Source: Ricordea florida (lineage: Eukaryota > Cnidaria > Anthozoa > Corallimorpharia > Ricordeidae). From it: a DNA stretch of 64,000 nt. Below are positions 43,201-64,000 of this stretch, piece by piece. Positions within the stretch are counted from its first letter, which is position 1. Each line of letters starts with the position of its first letter. The translations under genes and the position numbers were made by a program. The notes beneath the pieces were generated by a model that was given only the letters and a program-made list of their open reading frames with translations, had not been told where the DNA came from and ran no database searches. Location: NCBI GenBank assembly GCA_949710005.1, contig OX453278.1, positions 10,102,097-10,166,096 of the forward strand. Direction: 5' to 3'.

Positions 43201-44067
43201 AACCTAAGGATGAAAGCAAATAACGATTTTGAAAAAGATTTCTTCAAGCTTATGAATAACTCTGTCTTTGGTAAAACCATGGAAAATATTAGAAAAAGGG
43301 TGGATGTACGATTGGTTACGAATAAAAAAGATGCGAAAAAATTAATATCAAAACCTAACTATAAGCATCGTACTATATTTTGTGAAAATCTGATAGCCAT
43401 TCACATGAAGAAAACAAAGATAGTATTCGATAAACCTGTTTACTTGGGTATGTGCATTCTAGATTTAAGTAAAACAACAATGTATAACTTTCACTATAAT
43501 TATATAAAACCCAAATATGGTGAAATGGCTAAGTTGCTGTTTACAGATACGGATAGTCTTGTATATGAGATAGAAACAGAAGATTTCTACAAGGATATTA
43601 GTCCAGATGTGAGAGAAATGTTTGATACTAGTAATTATCCTAAAAACCACCCATCAGGTATCGAGACTGGTGTAAACAAAAAAGTAATCGGTATGTTCAA
43701 AGATGAATCTGGTGGTAAACAGATAGCTGAATTTGTAGGTCTACGAGCCAAGCTATACTCATACAGGATGGATAATGGAGAAGAGATAAAAAAGGACAAA
43801 GGGGTAAAGGCATCAGTTGTAAAAAATACCATATCATTTAATGATTACATGTATTGTTTATTCAATAAAAAACCTCAGATGAGACAGATGAATTTAATTA
43901 GAAGTGATAAACATGATGTTTATACTGAAACTGTTAATAAAGTTGCACTATCTGCTGATGATGATAAGAGAATCATTTGTGAAGATGGAATACATACTTT
44001 TGCCTACGGACATTATCGTTGCAACACAGAATTGGGTGGTAGTTTGGTATCTTCTAGTACAACCTGA
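40192..44067 (+). CDS. protein-primed family B DNA polymerase (Polinton PolB)
   Basis: 1291 residues from ATG 40192; the upstream in-frame GTG is less likely because it abuts the promoter-like word. Residues 1-30 form a SAP-like helix pair (FTVKQLKAIAKERGIKGYSG). A Pro-rich linker with ILDEPIPEI follows (about 62-72). Then come a C2H2-like finger (CHRCLNSFNSKDSLEKHLEYC at ~415), Exo I YADFES (~473), an endonuclease VII-like Cys/His cluster (CHIC ... VLDHCHLTGKYRGAAHNECN at ~579), Exo II NLSGYDSHLF (~624) and Exo III YHDLYLKSDVLLLAD (~782). Polymerase motifs: DANNLYG (~885), LMNNSVFGKT (~1020), TDTDSL (~1117). It replicates the element from protein-primed ends. The last 55 bp overlap the convergent integrase gene, giving an unusual C-terminal tail. 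Confidence 0.95.
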   Translation: MEGFTVKQLKAIAKERGIKGYSGKRKAEIIKKIEQASAPRLIFYDDPIPTTGTNIPNQPQRHILDEPIPEINVPILEPSKPILKPTSIEHFENKVVKPIKKASKKFTDWILSLTPENIKKTVKKRVESQKERFNRIFKSFIPKEQETALKGYLKTYRIDGQKGYGPKTFINKIKQKVIDLINQKKKSHKVKFILTCKFIKESLLTDHIDETLRYFNSPLEIILEATDLSKLFDTMTNQLLEEFERFIVNGYGWKFSYVEYFDIHIDSFEPLSGSSYIPLPLKLAYKRAIINVRNEKDHECFKWAVTSAVFPREKDPQRLNKQMRENSEKFDWSGKEFPVEWKHIDKFEKQNPYAINVYEYEGDLRPLRLSKKQGGEFINLLLISEDENKHYCWIKNFSRASSSQFNNHQHAREPCHRCLNSFNSKDSLEKHLEYCNTNEVKIDMPKDKDGNPRYIKFNNYNRKMRVPFVVYADFESYTEKIHTCSPDESKSFTKQYQKHKPSGFCYLIKSFDDKIFPPELVQYTSESPDDDISQIFVDTLEADIKKIYDEIKSNKSKFHKKVEDMPEMDKKDYKNATHCHICEGELGKDKVLDHCHLTGKYRGAAHNECNLNYKIPNFFPVIFHNLSGYDSHLFVKNLGTSEGNINCIPNNEEKYISFTKQIVVDTIINEKDKQVEVKRDIRFIDSFKFMATSLDKLVTNLPKESFKNLNIFYEGEQLKLLLRKGVFPYDWFDGFDKLNETKLPPKESFYSKLNDEDITEDNYQHAQKVWETFNMKTMREYHDLYLKSDVLLLADVFENFRDVCSKNYGLDPAWYYTAPGLAWDAALKLTKVNLELLTDIDMLLMFEKGIRGGVSQISNKYGKANNPYMGEYDPKLPTKYIEYLDANNLYGGEMSKPLPTHGFRWMTDQEIKNWKNIPCILEVDLEYPHHLHDLHNDYPLAPERLVVNKVEKLIPNLNDKVKYVVHRETLKLYKSLGLKVTKIHRGITFEESAWLKPYIDLNTNLRMKANNDFEKDFFKLMNNSVFGKTMENIRKRVDVRLVTNKKDAKKLISKPNYKHRTIFCENLIAIHMKKTKIVFDKPVYLGMCILDLSKTTMYNFHYNYIKPKYGEMAKLLFTDTDSLVYEIETEDFYKDISPDVREMFDTSNYPKNHPSGIETGVNKKVIGMFKDESGGKQIAEFVGLRAKLYSYRMDNGEEIKKDKGVKASVVKNTISFNDYMYCLFNKKPQMRQMNLIRSDKHDVYTETVNKVALSADDDKRIICEDGIHTFAYGHYRCNTELGGSLVSSSTT

Positions 44068-45008
44068 AGTTCTTCCCTCACAAAACCACGCCTCGGACCA
44101 TCTAGTAAATAATACAAAACTGGTTGATTAGATGAAACCACACTACGTGATAGATCATAAACCTGAATACTCCAAATGGGATCCGTAGCTCGTCTTCGTT
44201 CACCACCCTCAAGTTCACCAGGAGCAAGTAAGTATCTAACTTTAACACCAGGTGGTAACCTAACCTCATCATATCCAACAACTCGCTTATATTTTGGAGG
44301 ATTAATATCAACCTCTTTCAGTCTTATAGCTTTATCAGGCTCTTTACCAGTTATTCTAGTTGGTATACTATTCAAAGTTTTCAAAATATCTGGTAATCGT
44401 TTCACCCATACTCTAGACCTATCATCACTAATCATTTCTTGTGCATATTGATGACTAAATAATCGTTCACTTAATGTTCTATTTGCTCTTTCAACAAATG
44501 CTTGAGCTCTATGGTTTCCAGCTTCACTTCTCTGGATGTTTACATTATGTATGTTCATAAGTTTTGTTACATCTCCCATAAATTCTCTTCCAGGATCAAC
44601 AATTAATGTTTTGGGATATTTTAACTTTCTGGAATATATTTTTGTTAAAGCTTTTGAAATCTCATTACTTTCTTTTGAGGTTAGTGGTTCTGCACCTTTA
44701 TATCTCGAGGCAATATCAATCACAACCAGAGCATATCGATATGTCTTTCTTCCTACTCTATCATGTGGTAAAAATAATAAATCTGCTTGGTGAATCTGAT
44801 TCGGTTTATCCACAGCCCAGTGCGGTCTAGGAATATACTTTGGAGCTGGTAGATAGATTTGCCATAAAGCCTGTTTCTCAAGCCATCGTTTAGCATCATC
44901 TTCACTTACTTTTGCTTTTTCAGCTAATTTAGGAATGGCAGAATACCCTTTCCAATATCCATAAGTTGAATAGTATATTTTTGAAAGCATATTTTTGTTG
45001 TTACTCAT
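44013..45008 (-). CDS. Polinton retrovirus-like integrase
   Basis: 331 residues. N-terminal helices (residues 1-60) precede the rve core, with D76 in IHQADLLF, D138 in LIVDPGREF and E173 in AFVERANRT (the DDE triad), then a basic C-terminal region with an SH3/chromodomain-like stretch (VGYDEVRLPPGVKVRYL). It would insert the element and make the 5-bp TSD seen here. It is divergent from the capsid gene (35 bp between starts) and overlaps PolB tail to tail by 55 bp. The frame is intact. Confidence 0.95.
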   Translation of the reverse strand: MSNNKNMLSKIYYSTYGYWKGYSAIPKLAEKAKVSEDDAKRWLEKQALWQIYLPAPKYIPRPHWAVDKPNQIHQADLLFLPHDRVGRKTYRYALVVIDIASRYKGAEPLTSKESNEISKALTKIYSRKLKYPKTLIVDPGREFMGDVTKLMNIHNVNIQRSEAGNHRAQAFVERANRTLSERLFSHQYAQEMISDDRSRVWVKRLPDILKTLNSIPTRITGKEPDKAIRLKEVDINPPKYKRVVGYDEVRLPPGVKVRYLLAPGELEGGERRRATDPIWSIQVYDLSRSVVSSNQPVLYYLLDGPRRGFVREELQVVLEDTKLPPNSVLQR

Positions 45009-45036
45009 TTAAAAGAATACTACACCTATCTTTAAA
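45007..45036. promoter_or_regulatory. divergent promoter with two opposed TTTAAA words
   Basis: The 35-bp gap between integrase and capsid starts contains TTTAAAAGAAT on plus (45008-45018, 25 bp before the capsid ATG) and TTTAAAGAT on minus (45036-45028, 19 bp before the integrase ATG). Confidence 0.6.
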
Positions 45037-45992
45037 ATAAAACATGTCTCAAGCTATATCTGAAAAAATTAATCCAAACAGGATTCCACTAGAGCCTCTA
45101 GGTTTGAAAGCGGAATCTTCATTGAATCGAATTACTCTAAATCCCTCATCCGCAAGTCCTGGAGAAACCTTATATATAAATATTCCACAACTTTCTCAGA
45201 ATGTAGTGATTGTACCAGGAAGTGTATCTCTATTATTTGACTTGACTGTTAGTGGTCATGCTAACAATACCCTTGTGAATAACGTAGGAAGTAACCTTGT
45301 ATCCAGACTTAGGGTTCTTTTTGGTGGAGAAACACTACAGGATACTCAAAGATACGATCTCTTTCAAACCTACCATGACTTATACTTATCAGCTGAAGAT
45401 CGTCAGAATGGAATAAAACAAGGTATTTCTTCTGAAAACATGAGGAAGCTTAGAACAAATGCTGGTGATAAGGTAACATCAGGAAATGCTAAGGAAGTAA
45501 CTCTTTCAGCAGTATACAACACCAAGTACCATATACCACTAAACCATCCTATTCTCAACAATCATGGGGTTTTCTATCCAAAGGCGTTACCTCATTCACT
45601 AATCTTTGAGATTACACTAGCTCCAGTTTATGATATTGTTGTTTATTCTGACACGGTCAAAACCCCATCTTATAAAATCACAAACCTTGAGTTGGAATAT
45701 GCTTGTATCTCAAGTGAATACTTAGCTAGTGAGGCTCAGTCAGCTTATCAGGTTGGTAAAGTATTCTTTTACGAGAATGTTATTCTTCACAAAACTTTCA
45801 CCATATCCAGACCTAATGACAGTGTTATAAACGAGCACATTAATTTACCGAGGAGGTCAATGACAGGGATATTATGCTTGTTCACAGAGGGTCACACTGG
45901 AGGAGCACGAGATTCTGAAAAGTTTGCAAATCCGAATATTACATCAATCGACATTAACGTTGACGGTATGCCAAACCGTATCTACTCTAAGG

Positions 45993-48521
45993 AGGGTCCT
46001 GAAGGGGGGTCCTAAATCCCAGTTCCCAGCCCAATTTTGGTCCAAATCCCAGTTCCCAGGCTAATTTTGGTCGAAATCCCAGTTCATAAACAAGAAATCC
46101 CATTTTCATAAGTACAGGTTAAAAACATGCATATAATGACTACAATAAATTAAAAGCGCAAACTGTTGATATTTGGATGTATGTACCTTTATCTGGACTG
46201 AAGAAAATCTCTCATTCTGCTGGTTAGCACTCTTTGTCTCCCAGCCCTTGTTGGCATAACCATGTTAAAACCAATCCCGTCATCTGCACTTTCTTCATCA
46301 GACTCGCTGTCCCCACTGTCACTACCACTGTATTCGTTAGGTTGATCATGGCAAGTGGCACCCTCCACAGTCTCAGCAGGCTGTTCATCTGTTTCCGTCG
46401 TCTGAGTTTCTGCACTTTCATCTAGAGGTCCATCTGGCACTATGCCTTGCGTGTGAGGTAATACCGAATGCAAATCTAATGGATAAGCACTGTCTGTGCT
46501 TCATACAAGTTCAAAGGCAGTGTCCCAGCTCTGTCCATGGTGTTGTCTTGTCGGACACTACGTTGTCTTACACACTTGCCGTATCGTTTCGCCCAAAACC
46601 TCATCTCTGCTTCATCATTTCTGGACAATCGTTGTCCAACTGGTTTGGGAATTTCGGCACGAACTAACTGGCCAGCATCAGAGGTTTCAGAGAGGTAGTA
46701 AGAGTTAGGGTGTGTGTAATAATGTGCAGACCATGGTGTCACTCTCTTTACTCCTTCTTCAACGGATGAACCAAAAATCTGTGCATATTCGTAGAGAGTA
46801 AATGTTTCCTTCTTAAAGTGAGTAACTGCATGCTGGTTCTCGACATTCATTGTCAGCAGTGATTCCAAGTTTAAGTTCAATTCGAATCCAGGAAATGAAG
46901 AAAGATCTTTCATGTTGTTCTCTAGTTTTCGAAGCGATTGTGCCATTAGCTCCAACGACTTCAAGCATTTGTTTGACAGGGTACCTTCTGGACCATCTGT
47001 GGTTTCTCTCCTTAAGGACTGCAGTTGTCTTGCCTTCTGTGAGCACGTCTTCACATACTCCAGGACTTCATCAACCATCCCAATTGCTTCTCCAACTGAC
47101 TTTTGGGGCTTTCTTTCTGTGCTTCTTTTGGAATGGATGTTAAAAGCCGTGACCAGTACTTGTAACTTCCCAAGGAACTCTGCAATTCCTGCCAAAGGTC
47201 TATTGACAAGCTTGATGGCACCACAACCAGAGTCTGCAACATAAATATTACGGTCAAACTCCACGCAAATTCCAATTGGTTGGCAAAGCTTGGAGTGTGT
47301 TTGCGAACCATCGCTATCACCTTTACCGTTCCCTGCAATCACATCAACTACTCCAGATTGAAAGATCTTAACGGAGTGATCCTCACAGAACAGAATGTCT
47401 TTTCCAATCCGCGTAACATTAACTGCTTGCGATGATATGGCTTGGCCATCCAAATCTCTTACAATTCTTGTTACACCCCGTGTTGGATCAAAGATATGAA
47501 CTGTGGGCCAGTTGCTAGCTTCTTAGCTGGGCAGATGTGCACACGCCGGAAGTATTTCAGATGGCCACTTGAGGTTCTCTTGCTTTTGTCAAGTTTAGGC
47601 GTCTTACTGCAAAGCAAACATGTGATGCCTTTCCCATCTTCGGCTAGTTTTACATCATCAGTTTTGTCCAACAAATCTTTCAATTTTTCGTGTGTGCCAG
47701 GTATGCTTGTTTTCTTTGCTGCTTTCTTGGGCATTTTGCCCGCGTGAGTGGCGGCACTTGCTGTGCTGCCCGAGGTCGTTGACCCTGAGATTCCCGGGAC
47801 TGTTGACTCTGTAGTTTCTGTAGCTTTCTCGAACACAATGTTCACAGATGCCTTTTTAAATGTCGTAACTCGTTGGATAGTCCTCACCAGTAGTGACCGG
47901 GATTCACTGCCTCGAAGCATTTCTACTTGTTCTTTCGTTCTAAGAACAAAAGGCGCTCTTTTCGTGCTGCCCGCTTCAACGAAATCCACATTAAAAAATT
48001 CAATAACAAAGTCGCCAAATCCTCTTTTCGCAGCAGAGTCCACAATTCTCCACAATGCTTGCCTGCAAGTCTGTTGGGCTGCGCTTCAGATCTAATTCGA
48101 TCTTGCTGTTTTCCGTGTGTACTATCGCATTGTTCGAAGAAACGTATTTCAATTCGATAATCATAGTTCGCCGACAGCAATTGCTCATGCTTGACGACGC
48201 CATGTTTGTTTTAAACAAACCGCTGATCAAGGACGTGACATGACCGCAGCGTAAAGCTTGGTAACGAGAACTTGCAATAGGAGGCCAAAACGTGGAAAAA
48301 TACTGACTTTTTTGTGTCATCAAATGCGATAATTCGAGTATTTGTGTCAAATTATAGGTTCGGAGACTAGCAAGTCTCACAAAGAAGAGAAATCCCATTC
48401 CCATTTTCCAAAGTGTTAGTCCCATTCCCAGTGGTAAAATCCCAGTCCCAGTGCACGAATCCCATTTTCCCAGCCCAAAAAGAGGCAAATCCCAGCTCCC
48501 ATTTTACCCCTTCAGGACCCT
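45993..48521. mobile_element. 2.5-kb hAT-type element in the capsid gene, 8-bp TSD
   Basis: TIRs AGGGTCCTGAAGGGG / CCCCTTCAGGACCCT, with CTCTAAGG directly repeated outside (45985-45992 and 48522-48529). Subterminal words aatcccagttccca/aatcccattttcc recur at least eight times across both ends. An 8-bp TSD and short TIRs fit hAT. It carries a decayed minus-strand gene with zinc-finger and NHL-like parts and no visible hAT transposase, so it is probably non-autonomous and has captured another gene. Confidence 0.9.
46189..48250 (-). pseudogene. zinc-finger/NHL-like gene inside the hAT-type element (broken)
   Basis: From the right: a start near 48210-48200 (MASSSMSNCCRRTM, then LKYVSSNNAIVHTE), a frame change near 48040, then FGDFVIEFFNVDFVEAGSTK and a Ser/Thr-rich linker. 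A zinc-finger-like CLLCSKTPKLDKSKR ... GHLKYFRRVHICP follows at about 47620-47545. After a one-base slip near 47510, an NHL/propeller-like part (VNVTRIGKDILFCEDHSVKI, GICVEFDRNIYVADSGCGAI) and a helical region run to 46476. A last frame change leads to an acidic tail ending RMRDFLQSR at 46189. At least three slips make it inactive. Function unknown; a captured host-type gene is possible. Confidence 0.55.
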
Positions 48522-48827
48522 CTCTAAGGGAATGAAACCGCCAGACTTTTGGGATTCGGTAATGAAACGTTTCGGTAAAGAGGGTGTAAAGATAAATGAT
48601 TTTTATAGCGATAAGTTTGCTTTATGGATTGACTTGAGAACTCATCATGACAATAGTATTCATGGGGGAGGTATGGCTTTGAACAACACAAGAGATGGAG
48701 TAAAACTTGAAATGAAACGACAAGTTGGAGGAACAGGAAATATCACCTGCTACATGTTTGTGGTAGCCGACGCGTTGATGGAGATCATGAATTCAAACTT
48801 AAGATCAATTATGTATTAGTTAAAAAG

Positions 48828-49454
48828 ATGGAAGAATTGAGAGATAAAATTCCTTTTCATTGTATTATAACAGGTCCAACAAATTGTGGAAAGACAAAGT
48901 ATATCACTGATCAGCTACGAGGACCCTTCAAAAAAGTGTTTGAATACATTGTTCTAATTTGTCCAACTTATTCTAAAAATAAAACCTATCATAAATTTGC
49001 TAACAGAGATAAACGTTTCTTTGTATTATCACCAGATGCTAGTAACAGTGATGAGATTAATGAATTGTTAACTGATTGTCAAACTTTGTTCTCTGGTACT
49101 AATACACTAATAATTTTAGACGATTGTGCTGTTTCGAATGATCTAAAGAAACGATCGAACAAGTTTATAGATCTAGCATTCTCTGGAAGACATCATGGAT
49201 TATCAGTGTGGGTATTAACACAACAATTAACATCCATAGCAAAACCATTCCGTGAAAATGTAACTTGTGTTGTTACATTCCATAATCCATCACAGAAAGG
49301 TATGAAGATGCTTTTCGAAGATTATGGAGGTGATTTAGACTCTGAAACATGTAAAAAATTTGTAGAAATGTTGAAAACTGAAAAATATTCTAGACTATGT
49401 TTATGTTTACGTTATCCATTCCAATGTTATTTAGAGATTCCTGCGGTGATTTAA
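48828..49454 (+). CDS. Polinton genome-packaging ATPase (FtsK/HerA, A32-like)
   Basis: 208 residues. Walker A is GPTNCGKT (16-23), Walker B is LIILDDC (94-100), and ALSGRHHGLSVWVLTQQL-type sequence (here AFSGRHHGLSVWVLTQQL) carries the sensor/Q motif. This ATPase type pumps DNA into capsids in Polintons, virophages and large DNA viruses. It starts 8 bp after the capsid stop, so the two are likely co-expressed. Intact. Confidence 0.95.
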   Translation: MEELRDKIPFHCIITGPTNCGKTKYITDQLRGPFKKVFEYIVLICPTYSKNKTYHKFANRDKRFFVLSPDASNSDEINELLTDCQTLFSGTNTLIILDDCAVSNDLKKRSNKFIDLAFSGRHHGLSVWVLTQQLTSIAKPFRENVTCVVTFHNPSQKGMKMLFEDYGGDLDSETCKKFVEMLKTEKYSRLCLCLRYPFQCYLEIPAVI

Positions 49455-49461
49455 AAGAATC
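49448..49461 (+). promoter_or_regulatory. TTTAAAAGAAT element before the 166-aa gene
   Basis: GATTTAAAAGAATC contains the ATPase stop codon (49452-49454) and ends 24 bp before the next ATG (49486). Confidence 0.55.
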
Positions 49462-49485
49462 TATGTATTATTAGAAAATTGCAAG

Positions 49486-49986
49486 ATGACAGAAGTTGAA
49501 GATTTTATTGAAGAACAGCCAGAGGTAAGAGATGACGATACCAAAGATAATGATGATATTGAAATAAAACAAGAATCACTAGCTATTCTCGCATCTCTTG
49601 GAACTACAAAGGAATATTTAGGTGTTGATATGAGTCTAGGTGATATAAAGAAACTCACGGTAAAAGATGTTGAAAAATATTATAATCGATACCAGACAGT
49701 ATTAGGTAAGAAAATTAGTGGTGGATTAGTAGATTCATCTCTTCAATTAGTTTCTCATGTTATTTCTTACATGGTTCCTGTGGATGATATCGAAGCGCTT
49801 TGTAAAGACTTGAAGAATGATGAGTTGGTTAATCGTGAACTGACAAACTTTGTAGGTCTCTTAGCATTAAAAGGTGGAAGATTGGTAGCACTTGCTAGCG
49901 GACTATTCCAGATTGCTAAACACATTAAAATCAACAAAATACAAGAAGTTTCAAGTACAAATGCTGATGATTCTAACAAAAACTGA
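49486..49986 (+). CDS. Polinton protein of unknown function, 166 aa
   Basis: An acidic N-terminus (first 30 residues rich in D/E), then a helical body (LGDIKKLTVKDVEKYYNRYQ) with a hydrophobic segment near 123-142 (VGLLALKGGRLVALASGLFQ). I recognise no domain. Its position after the ATPase in the late cluster suggests a virion or assembly role. Confidence 0.8.
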   Translation: MTEVEDFIEEQPEVRDDDTKDNDDIEIKQESLAILASLGTTKEYLGVDMSLGDIKKLTVKDVEKYYNRYQTVLGKKISGGLVDSSLQLVSHVISYMVPVDDIEALCKDLKNDELVNRELTNFVGLLALKGGRLVALASGLFQIAKHIKINKIQEVSSTNADDSNKN

Positions 49987-50006
49987 GAAGGTCACTGAGC
50001 ACAACT

Positions 50007-50019
50007 GATTTAAAGATTC
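50007..50019 (+). promoter_or_regulatory. TTTAAAGATT element before the 136-aa gene
   Basis: GATTTAAAGATTC ends 24 bp before the ATG at 50044. Confidence 0.6.
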
Positions 50020-50043
50020 TTTACTTTGTGAAATAAAATAATA

Positions 50044-50454
50044 ATGTCTGATCAAGTTGTTGAGCAAATTACAATGGATCCTATACCTGAAAAGAAAGAT
50101 CCTAAAAAGAAAGAGAAAGATCCTAAAAAGGTTGCTGCTGGTAAGAAACTAGCAGAATATAACAAAAAAGCTAAAGAAGCGTTAGCCAGGGAAATGAAAC
50201 GTGAAAAGGAACAAGCGGAGACTAAACAGGAAGAAAATTACAATGAAGAGAGTGAACCTAAAGCATGGATTCCAGAGCTATCTTTTACTACTGTGTTATC
50301 TATTGTTGGAATAGGGTTTACTGCAGTTGACATGTTTATGAGGTACTACAAAAACAGAAAACCACCAAACCAACCATCACCCTCAAATATTCTTACTCAT
50401 CCACCACCCCCACAGACCACCACCAGACCAACTCCAAAAACGGTAATGCTCTGA
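50044..50454 (+). CDS. Polinton Lys-rich single-membrane-span protein, 136 aa
   Basis: The N-terminal 75 residues are highly basic and charged (KKDPKKKEKDPKK repeats) and could bind DNA. One hydrophobic segment (FTTVLSIVGIGFTAVDMFM, about 80-98) follows, then a Pro/Thr-rich tail. A core or membrane-active virion protein is plausible, but this is inference. Confidence 0.8.
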   Translation: MSDQVVEQITMDPIPEKKDPKKKEKDPKKVAAGKKLAEYNKKAKEALAREMKREKEQAETKQEENYNEESEPKAWIPELSFTTVLSIVGIGFTAVDMFMRYYKNRKPPNQPSPSNILTHPPPPQTTTRPTPKTVML

Positions 50455-50462
50455 TGAAAGTA

Positions 50463-50473
50463 GTTTAAAGATA
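50463..50473 (+). promoter_or_regulatory. TTTAAAGATA element before the 72-aa gene
   Basis: GTTTAAAGATA ends 25 bp before the ATG at 50499. Confidence 0.55.
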
Positions 50474-50498
50474 TTATATAACAACAATAAAAAAAATC

Positions 50499-50717
50499 AT
50501 GTCAACTGAAAACAAACTTGTGAAAACTGTTACTGATTCGGCTGTCATTATCGGATTGGCTGCTGGAGTTGGATATGTGGCTAAAAAGGCTTTGAAAGAA
50601 TCATTTATGAACGATCCATCCTCAAGTATTACAAACTATGCTAAATGGGTTGCTGTCCTATCTGGTAGTATGTACCTAAAAACATATTTAGAGGATCAAA
50701 AGATTTTACCAAATTAA
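50499..50717 (+). CDS. Polinton small membrane protein, 72 aa
   Basis: Two moderately hydrophobic segments (SAVIIGLAAGVGYVAKKAL, about 14-32, and WVAVLSGSMYLKTYL, about 49-63). No known domain. It lies six bases before the next gene, with a shared aattaaagattt word between them. Confidence 0.75.
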   Translation: MSTENKLVKTVTDSAVIIGLAAGVGYVAKKALKESFMNDPSSSITNYAKWVAVLSGSMYLKTYLEDQKILPN

Positions 50718-50723
50718 AGATTT

Positions 50724-51116
50724 ATGGCAGCAATAGCAATGATGGTTGGTGGAGCTATTTTGAATGCTACTACCTTCGTTGGTGGTTCATATCTTGCAAA
50801 ATATCTCTCAGGTGATAAAACAGATACAGAGCGAATAAGACACGATAAGGCAATTGAAAAATATCAAAAAGATTATGCTACATACCAGGAAAAGAGACAG
50901 AATCTAATTGATTGGTACTCTAAACAGAAGGATGCTAAATACCAGGTTTCAAAAAATATTTCGAATACCGATGAAGCTTTTAAATTTTATAGTCAGACAC
51001 ATGAACCAAAATTCTCTGATTATTATAGACCTAGTGACAATCAAAAGATGGGGGAGATGGCATATGTGGGTGGTGGTATGCTGGCATTGGGTTATATGGT
51101 TAGTAAATTCTTTTAG
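50724..51116 (+). CDS. Polinton membrane protein, 130 aa
   Basis: Hydrophobic ends (MMVGGAILNATTFVGGSYLA at the start and YVGGGMLALGYMVSKFF at the finish) flank a charged helical middle with Lys/Tyr-rich sequence. Probably a membrane or inner capsid component; not recognised. The promoter-like aattaaagattt (50712-50723) touches the ATG. Confidence 0.75.
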   Translation: MAAIAMMVGGAILNATTFVGGSYLAKYLSGDKTDTERIRHDKAIEKYQKDYATYQEKRQNLIDWYSKQKDAKYQVSKNISNTDEAFKFYSQTHEPKFSDYYRPSDNQKMGEMAYVGGGMLALGYMVSKFF

Positions 51117-51130
51117 GTAATTGTGTGATA

Positions 51131-51143
51131 AGTTTAAAGAATT
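51131..51143 (+). promoter_or_regulatory. TTTAAAGAATT element before the 400-aa gene
   Basis: AGTTTAAAGAATT ends 22 bp before the ATG at 51166. Confidence 0.6.
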
Positions 51144-51165
51144 TATTACTGATAAGTAAAAAATC

Positions 51166-52368
51166 ATGGAAGAAGGTGGAGATATACCTAAAGAAAATCC
51201 TTTTGATGAATCAACCGATCTAAGTGATTATTATGGTGATACAACAAATTATGGCACTCCATTAGACACACTTACATCAACCACTAATCCAAATGACCCT
51301 TATGGTGGTTTGGATGATGATGATGATAAAGAACCTACACTAACTAATAAAAGTAAAGAAGACAATAGGTCTCTAGCTTTAAAAAAGATAGAAGAGAAGT
51401 TCTACAATTTCAATCCACTAGATTCACCATTCAGTGCAAGAATCGATGATGAGGGAGGGGTATGGGTTAAATTAACTGATCAAGTTAACAATAAGGAACA
51501 TTTACTTATTAGCTCCAAAGGAGATTTGGTAGATTATGACAAACTTCCTATGACAATCAAGAGAGCAATTGGTGTGGATTCTCAGAGTCTTATTATGAAT
51601 AATAATAAACTAATTGATAATTTGAATGAAAAAAATGAAGAAATTAGGGATTTACGTAATGCATTAAATGGGTTAAGATCAGTAGTGGAAACAAATGATT
51701 TGGAGATACAACGTTATATTGTTAATGATAAAGAGAAGCGTAGAATAATCGATCAACATCAAACTAGAATCGCGGAAATTGAAAGCTATTTGGATTTAGC
51801 TGTTAAACAGAAGATAGAAGTTAAAACAGAGGTTGATAAACTTAAAGGTGAATTAAATCAATACAAAGATGAAATTGATAAGTATAAGAAGGGACTATCC
51901 AATTTAACAAAGGTAGAACAAAGTAGAGATCTTTTAAAATCCAGGGTTGATGAATTTGAAGAACTATCGAGAAAGAATATAATTTCCAATCAAGAACAAA
52001 TAAGCGATCTAGAGAGACAAAATGATGAAATATTTAAAAAGATGCCTCTTCGTGATCGTGTTAAGGCTATCTTCAAAAAGTACGGTTTTACAGTATTTGC
52101 AGTTGTGAGTGCTGTTGGTGTTGTCATTGGTGTTATCGTTTCTAATCTTTCTAAAGGTCTAACTAAATTGGGTAAAGGTGTTGGTAACGGTTTGAAAACT
52201 ATTGGTAAGAAACTCGGTGAAATATTTCCTGGAATGGTTGGAGCTATCGTAAGCTTTCTATTCAAAACAGCAGGTGAGGTTATTGGATTTTTAGGTAAGA
52301 ATTCTTGGCTGTTGATAGTGGCTGTGGTTCTATATTTTGTGGAACAATTTAAAAAGAAGAGGCGATAA
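51166..52368 (+). CDS. Polinton coiled-coil protein with amphipathic/membrane C-terminus, 400 aa
   Basis: Residues 1-65 are acidic and Asp/Pro-rich. Residues about 145-290 form a long coiled coil (EKNEEIRDLRNALNGLRSVV and on). Residues about 305-392 hold three hydrophobic segments with a Gly/Lys-rich amphipathic stretch (LTKLGKGVGNGLKTIGKKLG). Such melittin-like or pVI-like tails are known in adintovirus/Polinton virion proteins and may help pass membranes. The tail is basic (KKKRR). Exact role unknown. Confidence 0.85.
   Translation: MEEGGDIPKENPFDESTDLSDYYGDTTNYGTPLDTLTSTTNPNDPYGGLDDDDDKEPTLTNKSKEDNRSLALKKIEEKFYNFNPLDSPFSARIDDEGGVWVKLTDQVNNKEHLLISSKGDLVDYDKLPMTIKRAIGVDSQSLIMNNNKLIDNLNEKNEEIRDLRNALNGLRSVVETNDLEIQRYIVNDKEKRRIIDQHQTRIAEIESYLDLAVKQKIEVKTEVDKLKGELNQYKDEIDKYKKGLSNLTKVEQSRDLLKSRVDEFEELSRKNIISNQEQISDLERQNDEIFKKMPLRDRVKAIFKKYGFTVFAVVSAVGVVIGVIVSNLSKGLTKLGKGVGNGLKTIGKKLGEIFPGMVGAIVSFLFKTAGEVIGFLGKNSWLLIVAVVLYFVEQFKKKRR
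52347..52359 (+). promoter_or_regulatory. TTTAAAAAGA element before the 129-aa gene
   Basis: AATTTAAAAAGAA lies inside the 3' end of the preceding coding region and ends 21 bp before the ATG at 52381. A weaker match than the others. Confidence 0.4.
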
Positions 52369-52380
52369 GTAAAAAAAATA

Positions 52381-52770
52381 ATGAATGATACAATATTTCT
52401 AACTATCACTATGCTAACTACTGAAACAAGAATTTACCTAGATCCACCCTTAACCAATGTAAAAGAGATACAATTACAATATTGTTTCCTTCGTAAAGCA
52501 AGCTATACAAATCCTTTATACTTAATGTGTGATCTTATAGAGTCAAAGTCTTCATATTCAACTTGTTGTAAACCCATCGGTAAAAATTTAGAACTTAAAC
52601 CCTCACAAGTACTAGCTGTTATTCCACCATATGAAAAACATCCTTGTTTAAAAGTTCCACAAACCAAAAATCCAATCAACTACTTTAATTTATGGCTTAT
52701 TGATGAAAATGGAAAAAAGCCTAACACAAATAACGAACCTGCCCTAATTAATTTAAAGATTCACTGTTAA
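52381..52770 (+). CDS. possible Polinton minor capsid (jelly-roll) protein, 129 aa
   Basis: A beta-rich sequence without membrane segments (TRIYLDPPLTNVKEIQLQYC, LYLMCDLIES, VLAVIPPYEKHPCL, YFNLWLIDENGKK). The strand pattern and size suit a single jelly-roll, so a penton-type minor capsid role is possible. I cannot confirm the fold by eye. Confidence 0.75.
   Translation: MNDTIFLTITMLTTETRIYLDPPLTNVKEIQLQYCFLRKASYTNPLYLMCDLIESKSSYSTCCKPIGKNLELKPSQVLAVIPPYEKHPCLKVPQTKNPINYFNLWLIDENGKKPNTNNEPALINLKIHC
52751..52763 (+). promoter_or_regulatory. TTTAAAGATT element before the 198-aa gene
   Basis: AATTTAAAGATTC lies within the last codons of the 129-aa gene and ends 19 bp before the ATG at 52783. 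Confidence 0.55.
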
Positions 52771-52782
52771 TCAGCAAAAAAA

Positions 52783-53379
52783 ATGGATGAGTACAATAGA
52801 GTTTATCCACAATTACCTATTAACGGAGAACCACTTAATTTCAGACTACAAAAGTCATGCGAAGTACTACAAAATCTTGAGAAGGAAATTAAACATTATG
52901 AGGATGTTAGGAAAAAATACAATAGAGCAAGAGGAATATTTACTAAAATCAGTGTTGGTAGTGGGGTGGTTTCAGTTATCCTATCTGCAAGTGGACTTGG
53001 AACCTCTCTTACTGGTTTTGGTGCTGTTGTTGGTATCCCATTAGGAGTTGTTGGAGGTCTTTGTGGTGGTATTTCAGTCGGATTCGGTGCGGCTTCTAAA
53101 CGACTTTCACAAAAAGTTAGTAAACATGAAAAGACTGTTTCTCTAGCAAAAGCAAAGGTAAACACCATTAACGACTTGGTTTCAAAGGCATTGAAAGATA
53201 ACACCATCTCCGACCAAGAATTTTCAATAATTTTAGCAGAGTTAGAAAAGTTTGAAAAACTAAAACTCGAAATCCGTCAAAAATTTCGGAAAGATACTGA
53301 AAAAAACTTAAATATGTCTCAGATAAGGAGAGAGGTTCGTGCAGACATATTAAAGGAGCTAACCGTTCCCACACGTTAA
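52783..53379 (+). CDS. Polinton protein with Gly-rich hydrophobic centre, 198 aa
   Basis: Helices (KEIKHYEDVRKKYNRARGIF) flank a Gly/Val-rich hydrophobic core at about 56-104 (GSGVVSVILSASGLGTSLTG, then GIPLGVVGGLCGGISVGFGA). A charged coiled coil follows to the end. The core could span or disrupt membranes. Not a named family to me. Confidence 0.8.
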   Translation: MDEYNRVYPQLPINGEPLNFRLQKSCEVLQNLEKEIKHYEDVRKKYNRARGIFTKISVGSGVVSVILSASGLGTSLTGFGAVVGIPLGVVGGLCGGISVGFGAASKRLSQKVSKHEKTVSLAKAKVNTINDLVSKALKDNTISDQEFSIILAELEKFEKLKLEIRQKFRKDTEKNLNMSQIRREVRADILKELTVPTR

Positions 53380-53418
53380 AATTTTCATTTGAGCTTAATA
53401 TTAGAAAAGAACGGTGTT

Positions 53419-53432
53419 GATTTAAAAGAATC
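53419..53432 (+). promoter_or_regulatory. TTTAAAAGAATC element before the large late gene
   Basis: GATTTAAAAGAATC ends 5 bp before the first ATG (53438) and 23 bp before the second (53456). That favours the second start, given the spacing seen elsewhere. Confidence 0.55.
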
Positions 53433-53437
53433 CTGTT

Positions 53438-55006
53438 ATGAACATAAATAATAAGATGGGCTTATTTAATGATTTCAGAAATAGATATCCAAAGGCTGAT
53501 ACAGGTCAATTCGAAGTTGTAGCTGATCCGTATGGTGGTTACATTAAGTGGAGATTTAATGGAACAACAATCATGTCTCATGATGACCCTACTGGAAAAA
53601 CATGGACTGAAGACCTATCACCCCGTTTAAAAAGACTTTTATGGAAAGATTTAGGATTGAATGATGATGCATTGAGTTCATTCCCAAAGAGTTTAACTAT
53701 AACCAATCGATCTTACCCAATACCCGCAATTGATTTTGATGACTTTACAAGTAATATTACAAAAATGCTAACCTCACTGGATATATACGTATCTAATACT
53801 AAGAAATTCACAGCAAATATGAGAAACATATTTACATCTCAAGTTGTAACTTTCAAATTTGGTAAACAGAGTAGAAAATGGTTGAACGCGCCTGATATGA
53901 ATTATTGGCCTCAACAACTTAACTTTGCAGTTTGGTGTGCGACCTCTGGTTGTGGTATAAGTCCTTTCGAGAGTCTAAACTATCCCAAAGTAGTGAGTAG
54001 CTTTATCAAGTTTCATGTATATTTCACTATAAGGCGGATATTATATGAATTGAGTCTTCCACTACCTGTTGATAAACCTTTTGTAATAAATAATAATCCC
54101 TATAATAAAGTTGCATATCAACGATTGTGTGCTGAATTTGGAATTAGTAATAATTCTGATTTTAGATGGAAAAGTGGTAGAAACGGAGGATTGGGTGATA
54201 TATTTATTGATTATGGTGCTGGATACAATGGAAGAGGTGGAGGAAATCAAAATATTCATATTGTAAGGAATTATGATGTTAGAGCTGATCAGTGGCCTGG
54301 TGAAGGTGGTAAATTTTCTGATGAGGGAGGTAAGAAAGAAAAAGGTAATCTCATCTCATTCATACGTAATGACGATTTTGCTGATTTCAAATATGCATGG
54401 TTTATCCCAACAAGTGGTCATGGACTCACTAAAGCTGGACTTGGTAGATTGAATCGATCTGTTGAAGCCTTTGTTTACTGTATATTAGGAGCGCAAGTCA
54501 ACACTAGAAACTCGATTTATGGTAATGGTGGTGGAGCGATCGAGACTTAACAAGAATTCTTACATCTGTTTGAGAATAGTGTTATTGAAAATGACATTTC
54601 TAGTTCTATCCAAAGGTATCAATTAGCTGTACAAGAAGCGAAATTACGGCTTGATTTAGCTATTGCTCCTGGTGTATGGTTAATGCCTAGTAATATGATA
54701 ATCAATACAGAGAGCGTGACTGGTTTTAATAATAAACTTATGAAAGCTAGTAGTGATATGAATTTTGGAGTGAATAATTCCCTAAACACTAAAACAAAAC
54801 AGGTTGGAATAAATCATAACATGGGATCTTCAAAAGTAAAGTTACCTCATAGAACTGAAACGAAACCAAAACCCACAATGAAAACAGACTCTACACAAAC
54901 ATACTCAACGAAACATGAAAATGATATGGACTCAACGCAACATGAAAAGAATATATTAGCATTTATAGTTTTAGCTGGTGGATTAGCGTGGTATCTATTT
55001 CGGTAG
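53438..55006 (+). pseudogene. large Polinton late protein, one in-frame stop
   Basis: A 370-codon frame (possible starts 53438 and 53456) ends in TAA at 54548-54550. The same phase then stays open for another 151 codons (QEFLHLFENSVIEND and on) to 55006, so one nonsense codon splits a protein of about 520 residues. The body is mixed alpha/beta with Trp-rich patches (DMNYWPQQLNFAVWCATSG) and Gly-rich loops. The C-terminal part is Lys/Thr-rich with a final hydrophobic segment (ILAFIVLAGGLAWYLF). I recognise no domain and no protease triad. Probably a structural protein. Confidence 0.75.
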
Positions 55007-55236
55007 TTCATGAGTATTTCATGTGATTATGATTGTGTGTAAATTAGTATGCACGTGTAGAACAATAGATTACATACTTTTACAACATAGCAACAAGCAA
55101 GTTGGAAAGTAGATTTGAAGTTTACTTTTAAAAGGCTGTTTTCTAACATCGCTCAGTAATGTTATTACGTTAATGTAAATTCCGTAAATTTTGTTATGTA
55201 ACACTGACTTGTGTTATATAACTTAATGTTTTTTTG
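55007..55236. other. intergenic gap between convergent late genes
   Basis: AT-rich with no coding sequence. It separates the 3' ends of the late cluster and the zinc-repeat gene. A terminator function is possible but no clear signal is visible. Confidence 0.5.
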
Positions 55237-55773
55237 TTAATTCTCTTGTTTTGTGTGACATTCTTTACAGATATATTTAATCTTTCTATGAATACATATT
55301 TGAGATCCTCCACACTCTTTACAGTAATCCTTTCTTTTTCTATGAATACATATTTGAGATCCTCCACACTCTTTACATAATGCCTTCTGTTTGTTGTGTT
55401 CACATATTTGAGACCCTCCACAATCCTTACAAAACCATCTTTGTTTTCCATGACTACAATAATACTTATTAGTTTTTGTTTTATCAATATCAGGTATCGG
55501 TTCATCCATAATTAGTCTTTGCGGTTGGTTGGGTATATTTTTTCTAGGTGTAGGGATTGGTGTAGTTTGTGGTTTGTTTGGAATATTTTTTCTAGGTGTA
55601 GGTATTGGTGTAGTTTGTGGTTGGTTTGAGATCTCTTCAGGTAAGTTGTTTGGTGTGGTGATGTCTATATCACGCAACACTTCGATGATTTCAGCTTTAC
55701 GCTTTCCAGAATATCCTTTAATACCCCGCTCTTTGGCGATGGCTTTCAGTTGTTTTACTGTAAAACCTTCCAT
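55237..55773 (-). CDS. SAP-like plus tandem zinc-knuckle repeat protein, 178 aa
   Basis: From ATG 55773 the first 29-30 residues are identical to the PolB N-terminus because both lie in the TIR. A linker with two copies of a 15-residue unit (TTPIPTPRKNIPN) and the peptide QPQRLIMDEPIPDI follows, echoing the PolB linker. The C-terminal half has four tandem units of about 18 residues of the form C-x2-H-x5-C-x2-CGGSQI (for example CKECGGSQICIHRKRKDY), each able to bind zinc. Repeats of this kind are common in giant-virus proteins. A DNA-binding or regulatory role is inferred. It runs opposite to all other late genes. Confidence 0.85.
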   Translation of the reverse strand: MEGFTVKQLKAIAKERGIKGYSGKRKAEIIEVLRDIDITTPNNLPEEISNQPQTTPIPTPRKNIPNKPQTTPIPTPRKNIPNQPQRLIMDEPIPDIDKTKTNKYYCSHGKQRWFCKDCGGSQICEHNKQKALCKECGGSQICIHRKRKDYCKECGGSQICIHRKIKYICKECHTKQEN

Positions 55774-55977
55774 CTTTGTTACTGTATACACAAATCTTTA
55801 AATCTCTTTTTTTCAAAATTCATTTTTTTTTAATTTTTCGTTATGATTATTTTTTTTTATTTTTTTCAAAGTACTGCGCACGAATTTTTTTTCAAAATAC
55901 TGCGCACGAATTTTTTTAAAGTACTGCGCACGAATTTTTTTAAAGTACTGCGCACGAATCGTCGTTATATACTCTCT
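55685..55977 (-). repeat. Polinton right TIR
   Basis: The inverted copy of 39987-40280, with the same four 24-bp units, A/T tract, promoter-like word and SAP-module codons. Differences are limited to a few single-base changes and A-run lengths. Confidence 0.95.
55792..55804 (-). promoter_or_regulatory. TTTAAAGATTT element, zinc-repeat gene
   Basis: The TIR copy of the PolB promoter-like word, 19 bp before the ATG at 55773. Confidence 0.6.
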
Positions 55978-59167: not shown

Positions 59168-59410
59168 CTTTCCAGCGACTTCAGCCTTAAAATTACGAGA
59201 AGAATTCCAAAGACTGCCGCAACGAACACATGCTCAGCATACCCCTTTGAAAACCACTTAGAACGAGCGGGAAAACCATCTTCCCCTCGCGTAGTCACCG
59301 AATCGTAATACAGCACTAGTAGTTGTAAAAGGCGGGTTCTGGCGCAAAGGGCGTGGTCAAAATTGATCCAAAGACTGCAAGTGTGCAGGATCGATTTTGG
59401 ATACAATCAA

Positions 59411-59446: not shown

Positions 59447-62400
59447 ATGTCCAAACAAAATGTCAAAGAGCTCCGCGCCATTGCCAAGGAACGCAAGATA
59501 CCAAAATATTACAAGATGCGTAGAGACGAGTTACTAGAGGCGCTGGGGATTCCTGAAGAGGTACCTAGTGGTAGTAGTGGTAGTGGGGGAACAACGCATA
59601 TTCTCGATGAGCCTGTACCAGAAATAAGCGTTCCGATTCTTAGGCCTACCAAATATATACCTCCAAGTGTCCCTAGTCGGTGGAAAACACTTGTTTCGGA
59701 ATATAACAAACGAGTACAGAAGAAAATAAACAAGTTTGCGAATTGGATTTTGAATTATGTTCCAAAGAGGATCAAAAAGCCAGCTAACGAAAGAATCAGG
59801 AAGTTGAAGGAGGAAGTAAGAAGCATCTGGGACTTAATAGAGCCATTCAAAGTGAAAGAAAGGGAACAAGCACTGAAAGGGTTTTTCAAGACCTATCGGA
59901 TCGATGGTAAAAAGGGGTACGGTCCTCAAGAATTCATTAAGAAAATAAAACCAAAGGTTTTGGAGTTACTTTATACTAGAAATAAACCCATCAAGGTGAA
60001 GTTTATATTAACTTGCACATTCATAAAAGAGAATCTTGCTACGGGTAAGATTGAAGAGACTGAGGGGTACTTTCATACTAATGTTGAAATAATAACGGAT
60101 TCAACTGAGCTATCTAAGTTATTCGATGCAATGACGGAATTACAACTTGAAAAGGTTGCGAGATTTGAAGGTGAAAAGTCTGGATGGCAATTTGATCGAG
60201 TTGAGTACTTTGATATACACATTAATCCATTTGAGCCTATCTCTGGGACTTGTTACATACCCCTACCAAAGGTTTTAGCTGAGAAGAAAGCTATAATCAA
60301 TGTCAAGAACGAGAAGGACCATGAGTGCTTCAATTGGGCAGTGACATCTGCTGTATTTCCCAAAGAGAAAGATGGTCAAAGACTGAATGCTGAGATGAGA
60401 GAGAACTCTAAGAAGTTTGACTGGACGGGAATGGAGTTCCCTATTACACTAAGGGATATTGCCAAGTTTGAGAAGCAAAACCCTTACGCTATTAACGTAT
60501 ATGGATACGCGTCTGAGGTAAACGTTTTGAGAATTAGTAAGCGCCGAGATGTGACAGTGATAAACTTGCTTCTATTATACAACAGTGAAACGAACCACTA
60601 CTGTTGGATTAAGAATTTGAGTAGATTATTAGCTTCACAAGTCAACAAACATAAATCCGTAGTACACTTCTGCCATAGATGTCTTAATCCATTCAAGTCA
60701 CAATCATCCCTGGACAAGCATCTAGAGTATTGCAATAATCATGAAGCAGTTAAGATGGAAGTCCCTGTTAACGAAGATGGAAGCCCACAGTTCTTCGGTT
60801 TCAAAAATCGCAACAGAAAGATGGAGGTACCCTTTGTTGTGTATGCAGATTTTGAGTGCTACACTGAAAAGATATACACGTGTTACCAAGATGAGGGTAG
60901 AAGCTTTACCAATAGATACCAGAAGCATAAACCATCAGGTTTTTGTTACCTGATCAAGTGCTTTGATAATGCTATATTCGAACCCAAACTTGTAAGGCAC
61001 ACAGCTGAATCACCAGACGAAGATGTACCCAAGATGTTTATAGAGAGCTTGGAGTCGGATATCAAAGAAATTTATGATAAGTTCAAGATCCCTAAGAATG
61101 CTCACGTTAGTGAGGATGAGAAAATAGACTATGAAAATTCCACGCACTGTCATATCTGTGGATTGATGATTAGCCATGACAAGGTATTAGACCATTGCCA
61201 TATTAGTGGAAAGTATAGAGGCGCAGCGCATGAAGAGTGTAACTTGAATTATAAGGTGCCTAAATTTGTACCAGTTATATTCCATAACCTATCCGGATAC
61301 GATGGTCATTTATTTGTGAGGAACATAGGGGAATCGAAAGGTAAGGTTGATTGCATACCAATCAACGATGAAAAATACATTTCATTCACCAAGGATATTG
61401 TTGTTGACTCTTACAAGAACAAGGAAGGTAACACGGTTGACATTAAACGGGGAATTAGGTTCATTGATAGCTTTTGGTTTATGGCAGCGGGTCTCAGAAG
61501 GTTAGTTGACAATCTACCACAATCTTCTCTGGTGAATGTAACGAGTTGGCATGAAAGGGTAATGGAAGAAGATGCTCCAGACTTGAAGTTACTGACTAGG
61601 AAGGGTGTATTTCCGTACGATTGGTTTGATGGATTTGATAAGCTCGGTGAAACTAATCTCCCACCAAAAGATGAGTTCTATTCGAAGCTCTACGAAGCAG
61701 AAATATCGGACGAGGATTACCAACATGCACAAAACGTGTGGAAAGCCTTTGGGATTAAATGCTTCAGGGAATACCACGACCTTTACCTTGAGCTGGATGT
61801 CTTATTGTTAGCTGATGTTTTCGAGAACTTCAGAGATGTTTGTAGAAAGAACTACGATTTGGATCCAGCTTGGTATTACACTGCACCTGGATTGGCATGG
61901 GACGCAGCCCTGAAAATGACCAAGGTGAGTTTGGAACTTTTGAAGGACCCTGACATGCTTCTCATGATTGAGAAAGGCATTAGAGGGGGTATCTCCATGA
62001 TCTCCAATAGATATGGTAAAGCCAACAATCCATACATGAAAGATTATGACCCATCATTACCAACAAAGTACATCACATACCTGGATGCAAACGGTTTGTA
62101 CGGATGTGCAATGAGTAAAGCTTTACCAACACATGACTTTCGATGGTTGACTGAAGAAGAGCTTGTATTGAAGTGGAAAGATATACCATGCATACTAGAG
62201 GTTGATATGAGGTATCCAAAGAACCTTCACAAACTGCATAATGACTATCCATTGGCACCAGAGAGAGTTACGGTGAATGGCGTGGATAAGCTAATTCCAA
62301 ACCTAAGGCACAAACTAAAATACATTATTCACCACGAGACGCTGAAACAATATTTGAGTCTCGGGCTCAAAGTCTACAAGATACATAGAGGCATCACATT

Positions 62401-63283
62401 CAAAGAGTCCGCATGGCTGAAGCCCTATATCGACTTGAATACCGAACTAAGGACGAAAGCAACAAACGATTTCGAGAAGGATTTCTTCAAGTTGATGAAC
62501 AACTCAGTCTTTGGGAAAACTATGGAGAACGTAAGGAACAGAGTGGACGTTCGTTTGGTCACGAATGAGTCAAAAGCCAAGAAGTTGGTATCGAAGCCGA
62601 ATTACCACCACAGCACGATCTTTTGCGAGAATCTAGTTGCAGTACAAATGAAGACAAAGTTGGTGTTGGACAAACCCATTTACCTAGGCTTTTCAGTCCT
62701 TGAGATAAGCAAGACTATAATGTACGACTTCCACTACAACTACATCAAGCTCAAGTATGGTAGCAATTCCAAGTTGTTATTTACAGACACTGATTCACTG
62801 GCGTATGAGATAGAGACGGATGACTTCTACAAAGACATAAGCCTAGATGTGAGAGACCGGTTCGACACCAGCAACTATCCTGAAGATCATCCATCCGGCA
62901 TTGAGGTGGGCTTGAACAAGAAAGTCGGGGGGATGTTCAAGGATGAAGCGGGTGGCCAACAGATCATAGAATTCGTAGGTCTCCGGGCCAAACTATATTC
63001 ATATATGATGGATGAGGGAAAGGAAGAAAAGAAGTGTAAGGGTGTGAAGAAAGCGGTCGTGAGAAAGAGCATAAGCTTCAACGACTACAAGGATTGCCTC
63101 TTCAATCAAAAACTACAGAGGAGGACAATGAATATCATCAGGAGTCACCTGCACGACGTGTACACAGAGACTGTGAACAAGGTGGCACTATCATGCGAAG
63201 ACGACAAAAGGGTGGTAAGGGAGGATGGGATACACACATATGCATATGGTCACTTTAGGACGCTAACTTCGGTAAAAACTTAA
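59447..63283 (+). CDS. second Polinton family B DNA polymerase
   Basis: 1278 residues from ATG 59447 (MSKQNVKELRAIAKERKIPK); the upstream in-frame ATG at 59363 would add 28 residues unlike the first PolB. SAP-like start, then linker peptide HILDEPVPEI (~51-60), C2H2-like finger (CHRCLNPFKSQSSLDKHLEYC at ~408), Exo I YADFEC (~465), endonuclease VII-like cluster (CHIC ... DHCHISGKYRGAAHEECN at ~568), Exo II NLSGYDGHLF (~614), Exo III YHDLYLELDVLLLAD (~775), then DANGLYG (~879), LMNNSVFGKT (~1015) and TDTDSL (~1113). All catalytic residues are present and the frame is intact. It ends HFRTLTSVKT, lacking the overlap-coded tail of the first copy. Confidence 0.95.
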   Translation: MSKQNVKELRAIAKERKIPKYYKMRRDELLEALGIPEEVPSGSSGSGGTTHILDEPVPEISVPILRPTKYIPPSVPSRWKTLVSEYNKRVQKKINKFANWILNYVPKRIKKPANERIRKLKEEVRSIWDLIEPFKVKEREQALKGFFKTYRIDGKKGYGPQEFIKKIKPKVLELLYTRNKPIKVKFILTCTFIKENLATGKIEETEGYFHTNVEIITDSTELSKLFDAMTELQLEKVARFEGEKSGWQFDRVEYFDIHINPFEPISGTCYIPLPKVLAEKKAIINVKNEKDHECFNWAVTSAVFPKEKDGQRLNAEMRENSKKFDWTGMEFPITLRDIAKFEKQNPYAINVYGYASEVNVLRISKRRDVTVINLLLLYNSETNHYCWIKNLSRLLASQVNKHKSVVHFCHRCLNPFKSQSSLDKHLEYCNNHEAVKMEVPVNEDGSPQFFGFKNRNRKMEVPFVVYADFECYTEKIYTCYQDEGRSFTNRYQKHKPSGFCYLIKCFDNAIFEPKLVRHTAESPDEDVPKMFIESLESDIKEIYDKFKIPKNAHVSEDEKIDYENSTHCHICGLMISHDKVLDHCHISGKYRGAAHEECNLNYKVPKFVPVIFHNLSGYDGHLFVRNIGESKGKVDCIPINDEKYISFTKDIVVDSYKNKEGNTVDIKRGIRFIDSFWFMAAGLRRLVDNLPQSSLVNVTSWHERVMEEDAPDLKLLTRKGVFPYDWFDGFDKLGETNLPPKDEFYSKLYEAEISDEDYQHAQNVWKAFGIKCFREYHDLYLELDVLLLADVFENFRDVCRKNYDLDPAWYYTAPGLAWDAALKMTKVSLELLKDPDMLLMIEKGIRGGISMISNRYGKANNPYMKDYDPSLPTKYITYLDANGLYGCAMSKALPTHDFRWLTEEELVLKWKDIPCILEVDMRYPKNLHKLHNDYPLAPERVTVNGVDKLIPNLRHKLKYIIHHETLKQYLSLGLKVYKIHRGITFKESAWLKPYIDLNTELRTKATNDFEKDFFKLMNNSVFGKTMENVRNRVDVRLVTNESKAKKLVSKPNYHHSTIFCENLVAVQMKTKLVLDKPIYLGFSVLEISKTIMYDFHYNYIKLKYGSNSKLLFTDTDSLAYEIETDDFYKDISLDVRDRFDTSNYPEDHPSGIEVGLNKKVGGMFKDEAGGQQIIEFVGLRAKLYSYMMDEGKEEKKCKGVKKAVVRKSISFNDYKDCLFNQKLQRRTMNIIRSHLHDVYTETVNKVALSCEDDKRVVREDGIHTYAYGHFRTLTSVKT

Positions 63284-63324
63284 GGATTTATTTATACATA
63301 TATATCCAACTAGACAAAGTTGGT

Positions 63325-64000
63325 ATGGATTACGATTCAGAGGAAACTTATCACAGCCTTGCCGATCATTTTCAGTCTATGTTCAAGAAAGCTGATGAGG
63401 AGGACGAACAGGTTTGTAAGCATGAAAGTGTGTATAGGGATAAATCAGGGATTGTTATTTGTAGCCTCTGTAAGACTGAACTAGAATCGATGGACTACTC
63501 TCGACGGGAATGGGTGTATGACTTTTCAGCTAGTAGGTGTGATATGCGAAGATCAAAACTAAAGGGAGTTCGTAATGTATTCGAGAGACATGACTTGAAT
63601 GTGTCTTCTATGATGATCGATATCATAGAAGCCAAGTATCAAGAGATTCTAAAGTTTAAGTGTAAAAATCGCGGTCAGATTCGTACGTCTTTGGTGGCTT
63701 CATGCTTGTTTTATACATACCCAGAATTTGGTGAATATCGTACGTTAGATTACATTAGAAATTTGTTTGGACTCAAGCAAAGAGCCATGTAATGTGGTTT
63801 ACAAATGTACTTGGAAGCATTCCCAGAGGTGAGAACCAACCATGTTACACCAGAGAAACTTATTCCCTGGATAATGAGAGTTACTGGTATTGATGAATCT
63901 CATCAAAGACGTATTTTATCCATTGCCAAGTACTTTGAAGCAACATCACAGATTCTTGAGCGCAGTACTAGCAGCATAACTGCAGCGAGTATTGTCTTCT
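63325..64000 (+). pseudogene. TFIIB-like transcription factor, one in-frame stop, partial
   Basis: ATG 63325 starts a protein with a zinc ribbon C31-x-H33 ... C46-x2-C49 (VCKHESVYRDKSGIVICSLC). A first cyclin-like repeat follows (YQEILKFKCKNRGQIRTSLV, ASCLFYTYPEF, RTLDYIRNLFGL). TAA at 63790-63792 stops it at 155 residues. The same frame continues to the window end with a second cyclin-like repeat (VTPEKLIPWIMRV ... ERSTSSITAASIVF). TFIIB recruits RNA polymerase II to promoters, and homologues are known in archaea and large DNA viruses. The stop is probably a point mutation. Its place 41 bp after PolB suggests it belongs to the Polinton. Confidence 0.75.

Follow-up and report, generated by a model that had tools for sequence, protein, structure and literature searches.

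How does a Polinton, an element that to our knowledge carries no recognized RNA polymerase, have its genes transcribed? The question is posed by a stretch of the Ricordea florida genome in which a TFIIB-like transcription factor gene lies directly behind a Polinton-type DNA polymerase (PolB). This stretch, hereafter the window, comprises 64,000 nucleotides (C7:10102097-10166096 of a 538-Mb genome) and harbors two Polinton-type elements, elements 1 and 2, of which element 2 bears the TFIIB-like gene. Among the element open reading frames (ORFs) scanned with Pfam, none matches an RNA polymerase; the elements therefore probably use that of the host. The analysis below suggests that a Polinton TFIIB of giant-virus likeness may steer host RNA polymerase to element genes, and so bears on how elements of this kind get their genes transcribed.

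Family membership and resemblance to giant-virus TFIIB

The TFIIB-like gene begins at window position 63325 on the plus strand and leaves the window at 64000; the match continues past that edge to C7:10166224, equivalent to window position 64128. It encodes a zinc ribbon, C-x-H-x12-C-x2-C, followed by a reader/linker and two cyclin repeats. A preliminary description of this DNA had divided the gene into two frame-matched parts. The frames indeed match, but the two parts are a single continuous frame broken by one nonsense codon, the TAA at 63790-63792. The same description had assigned the gene to TFIIB, and profile searches bear this out: although the 155-residue window piece alone has no TFIIB match in Pfam, NCBIfam or PDB, combining it with 22 relatives yields a clear one. 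The zinc-ribbon family PF08271 is matched at E ≤ 0.1 in 9 of the 22, the CxH..CxxC zinc ligands are retained in 34 of 35 ORFs, and two cyclin-like repeats are present, both complete in the structure model. The B-reader motif (EWR...DPSR), present in relatives from the wider family, is partly kept here, its EW being altered in 5 of the 35 ORFs. By fold and family match, the window gene belongs to the TFIIB family.

Which branch of the family it resembles is indicated by a fold search: of the named viral relatives, the TFIIB of the marseillevirus-like giant virus Marseillevirus LCMAC102 (A0A481YU70) comes nearest, sharing the fold and being 40% identical over 247 alignment columns. Structure alignments to cellular TFIIB, archaeal TFB and Brf1, by comparison, give 10–14% identity only. 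The likeness to the TFIIB of nucleocytoplasmic large DNA viruses (NCLDV), to which the preliminary description had pointed, is supported by the fold search, which favors LCMAC102; the family tree has neither a cellular nor a named NCLDV row. LCMAC102 has its own RNA polymerase subunits, as tabulated in PMC6401483, whereas no scanned Polinton ORF matched one. Among PF00382-bearing relatives, the segment LDYSPEWRYFG...DPTRC resembles LDFxQEWRWYG...DPSRC of the wider family, and the Polinton protein has a single ribbon where several relatives have two. The ribbon of human TFIIB is spaced C-x2-H, compared with C-x-H in the Polinton protein. Scans of viral contigs yielded no confirmed relative, and phage records yielded none; at E 8.4e-7 and 6.3e-7, P0008 and P0010 match phrog_20431 of PHROGs (function unknown), which may be an archaeal-virus protein resembling TFB. 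A host exon carried along with the element is thought unlikely: the genome search with PF00382 does find host-type exons, the best of which, L085, is closest to TFIIIB 70 kDa, but none of its matches lies among the 140 copies described below (coordinates compared by eye).

Linkage to PolB and absence from the sister-lineage members read

The PolB of element 2 occupies 59447..63283 (plus strand, stop included) without an internal stop, and the ATG of the TFIIB-like gene follows at 63325, so that the gene does lie 41 bp behind an open PolB on the same strand, as had been described. The intervening stretch, 63284..63324 (plus strand), is TATA-like, with ATACATATAT and AACTAGACAAAG, and a slightly varied form of it precedes the TFIIB start in 38 of 38 copies (its last part only in L024). 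The PolB is of Polinton type, with a Rho_N-like N-terminus, an internal endonuclease VII-like segment, and the motifs DANGLYG, KLMNNSVFGK and TDTDS. A full-length Pfam scan gave Rho_N (2e-6) and, below its cut-off, Endonuclease_7 (3.8e-4), with DNA_pol_B_2 unlisted, and PDB gave no match at E ≤ 1. The suspicion, raised by the unlisted DNA_pol_B_2, that this PolB is not real was rejected, as a scan of sub-segment 60857-62260 returns PF03175 (DNA_pol_B_2) at E 4.4e-12, above its cut-off. Pox_A32 for the A32-type ATPase (4.7e-12) and Capsid_N (2e-5), also above their cut-offs, complete the Polinton gene set, with the rve integrase just under (E 1.3e-7; 32.2 bits, where 32.6 is the cut-off).

The gene lies inside the element. 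The left terminus of element 2 (AGTAGT, 59318..59323, plus strand) opens its left terminal inverted repeat (TIR), and alignment to the left ends of other copies begins at 59318. The right end of the window copy is not intact: in the stretch from L031:9601 to L032:9998 (C7:10175600-10185997), element 2 stops partway through its counterpart of ORF 53426, next to an inverted Polinton with genes resembling those of element 1. TIRs were found in three of four sister element pairs (no TIR match for L045/L053). They are 271–281 bp long and 97.5–98.9% identical, end in AGTAGT/ACTACT, and enclose the TFIIB gene. The three elements they bound span ~16.4–16.7 kb, as computed by hand from coordinates, and carry the 5-bp target duplications ACGTG, GGAAC and GCTCT. 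A TIR between 63283 and 63325, which would have placed the gene outside the element, is thereby rejected.

Nor is the window gene a chance occurrence, since at least 140 copies exist in the genome (of 285 candidates, 140 were scored; one copy is in two pieces, giving 141 rows). All 30 top copies are preceded by a PolB in the same orientation, with a gap of ~0.7 kb in L024 and only the PolB end retained in L005, and eight of eight divergent copies are flanked by PolB and, on the opposite side, by a convergent integrase. Seen from the polymerase side, 28 of 36 PolB loci of the element 2 type (36 scored of 7700 candidates; adjacency compared by eye) adjoin a listed TFIIB copy. Six of the remaining eight have a near full-length gene (with a stop in L067 and in two frames in L070), L072 has its start only, and L071 has no TFIIB gene within 1 kb of PolB. 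Integrase, capsid and ATPase follow downstream of TFIIB in 9 of 9 elements. Further homologues of element 1 genes come next in unchanged order in seven, L033 and L040 having none past the ORF-49450 homologue within the stretch read.

Element 1 itself (39987..55977; TIRs, ends AGAGAG/CTCTCT, 5-bp duplication GTCGG) is a TFIIB-less member of a sister lineage. The C-terminal part of its PolB (40192..44067, plus strand) shares ~74–77% identity with that of TFIIB-bearing copies for which the match is long, and its integrase (44013..45008, minus strand; rve E 1.3e-7, just under the cut-off) is convergent with the PolB ORF and overlaps it. This junction is the very site where the other lineage has TFIIB. 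No TFIIB profile match occurs in element 1 at E ≤ 0.01, in agreement with the preliminary remark that no TFIIB is visible in the first Polinton, and the same holds for those of its relatives that were examined: none of 36 scored element 1-type PolB loci (of 7639 candidates) adjoins a listed TFIIB copy, by eye from coordinates and against a TFIIB list that is itself partial. In the 0.8 kb behind PolB at 12 of these 36 loci, the integrase adjoins in every case (the last 24 residues only in L082), and no TFIIB profile match is found at E ≤ 1. As far as read, presence or absence of TFIIB follows Polinton lineage. With the factor standard in one lineage and missing from the sister members read, the genome offers a natural comparison: how promoters are used when a viral initiation factor is available, and when it is not, is testable in one host.

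Element promoters and the proposed role of TFIIB

Of the 10 genes of element 1, 8 have a TTTAAA-type word, a candidate shared promoter motif, in the 60 bp before their start (1.25 expected; one element), and TTTAAA precedes 25 of 68 gene starts in nine elements of the TFIIB lineage (4.5 expected). A promoter difference between the lineages was considered and none is clear, the word being enriched in both (one TFIIB-less element against nine).

Taken as a whole, we judge it probable that TFIIB is a regular member of the gene set of one Polinton lineage, placed between PolB and integrase, that host RNA polymerase II is biased to the element's promoters, and that the gene has viral rather than recent host roots. 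Inside the nucleus, the protein would join the host's pre-initiation complex for RNA polymerase II, where its ribbon and reader would contact polymerase and its cyclin repeats would contact TBP and promoter DNA. Initiation would thereby be biased to the element's own promoters. The analogy behind this proposed joining of host TBP and polymerase is an algal giant virus, whose TFIIB has been proposed to redirect host RNA polymerase II (PMC12085832). The gene itself was probably either exchanged with giant viruses of the marseillevirus kind or inherited from a viral pool common to both, rather than captured recently from the host, and it adds a gene common to Polintons and giant viruses to the debate over their shared history.

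In other respects, the TFIIB elements are like animal Polintons/Mavericks (adintovirus-like): they share a DNA_pol_B_2 PolB, rve integrase, capsid, A32-type ATPase, TIRs and overall length, and their AGTAGT/ACTACT ends match those of vertebrate Mavericks (PMC8097293). Unlike these, they have a TFIIB gene between PolB and integrase. No published report of TFIIB in Polintons was found in the titles, abstract starts and passages of the papers listed from a library of 5.39 million. By term search of the main texts, the word TFIIB is absent from PMC11071308 and PMC10120064, and "transcription" from PMC8097293. Polinton relatives can nonetheless carry transcription factors, since adintoviruses of Amoebidium bear VLTF3 (PMC11244446) and some adintoviruses have genes remotely similar to zinc-finger regulators; that VLTF3, however, is a poxvirus-type late factor, not a TFIIB.

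Three alternatives to host polymerase redirection were considered. Pairwise NG86 ratios of nonsynonymous to synonymous substitution rates (dN/dS), in which post-insertion decay is mixed with selection acting on active lineages, have a median of 0.46–0.54 for TFIIB. For an identical set of 14 copies, the pooled ratio is 0.45, versus 0.12 for the PolB C-terminus, with dS lower in TFIIB (0.09 versus 0.17). Such high values argue for weak or changing constraint, or for decay after insertion; the open frames argue for use of the gene in active lineages. By region, dN/dS is 0.25 in the N-terminus, 0.78 in the ribbon, 0.57 in the reader/linker, and 0.59 and 0.50 in the repeats. The ribbon value, the highest of the five though from a small region, together with the faster evolution of the whole gene relative to PolB and a reader motif eroded in 5 of 35 ORFs, would suit a decoy or inhibitor that occupies TBP or RNA polymerase II without initiation, damping transcription of the host or of a competing virus. 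We nevertheless regard a decoy as unlikely, given that the zinc ligands are intact in all but one ORF, that a decoy has no obvious need of a ribbon, and that the model has the two cyclin repeats in full.

Less likely again is a tie between the Polinton and a giant virus in which the element's TFIIB works alongside the giant virus RNA polymerase, in the manner of virophage-like systems. Small and giant viruses are generally known to exchange genes, and this, like the marseillevirus-like closest named viral relative, speaks for such a tie; the abundance of chromosomal copies and the target duplications of the three resolved elements speak weakly against it. That TFIIB was captured once and amplified along with the element as a functionless passenger would fit a dN/dS near 0.5, but appears very improbable: 130 of the 140 listed copies are stop-free within the match, down to 75% identity to the query (the other 10, window copy included, have at least one stop), and relatives in other datasets, at 32–52% identity, retain the domain layout.

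A second, short TFIIB-like gene elsewhere in the genome, and features of element 1

The PF00382 genome search matched 35 places. Of six such loci examined, two, L087 (Pfam E 1.2e-11) and L088 (Pfam E 2.9e-11), contain a TFIIB repeat, that of L087 matching the second repeat of human TFIIB at E ~2e-6. This short gene, at L087:1468-1731 (C10:8355709) and L088:1468-1731 (C10:8508737), sits directly behind a capsid C-terminal piece, as located by tblastn in L088 and by eye in the ORF of L087, where homologues of two later Polinton genes come after it. A ribbon-like cysteine set upstream is in a different frame, with stops. The short gene has 73 genome matches at 25–100% identity, some of which may be host exons; the Polinton context was seen at L087 and L088. 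It is a tentative idea, which we hold with somewhat less than even confidence, that animal Polintons took up TFIIB more than once and use it to redirect host RNA polymerase II, as a full gene behind PolB (at least 140 copies) and as a short, one-repeat gene behind capsid (two loci read, 73 matches). If true, small integrating viruses would recurrently rely on capturing an initiation factor, and the TFIIBs of Polintons and marseillevirus-like viruses would form a single lineage passed on by exchange.

Element 1 has a capsid gene that, judged by eye, seems divided into an N-part (45041-46015) and a C-part (48358-48819), between which (46016-48358) lies a GC-richer stretch bearing minus-strand ORFs. 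At 55237-55797 (minus strand), the right TIR of the element repeats the PolB start, and the ORF there joins this N-terminus to a series of repeated zinc-like motifs, CKECGGSQICIH.
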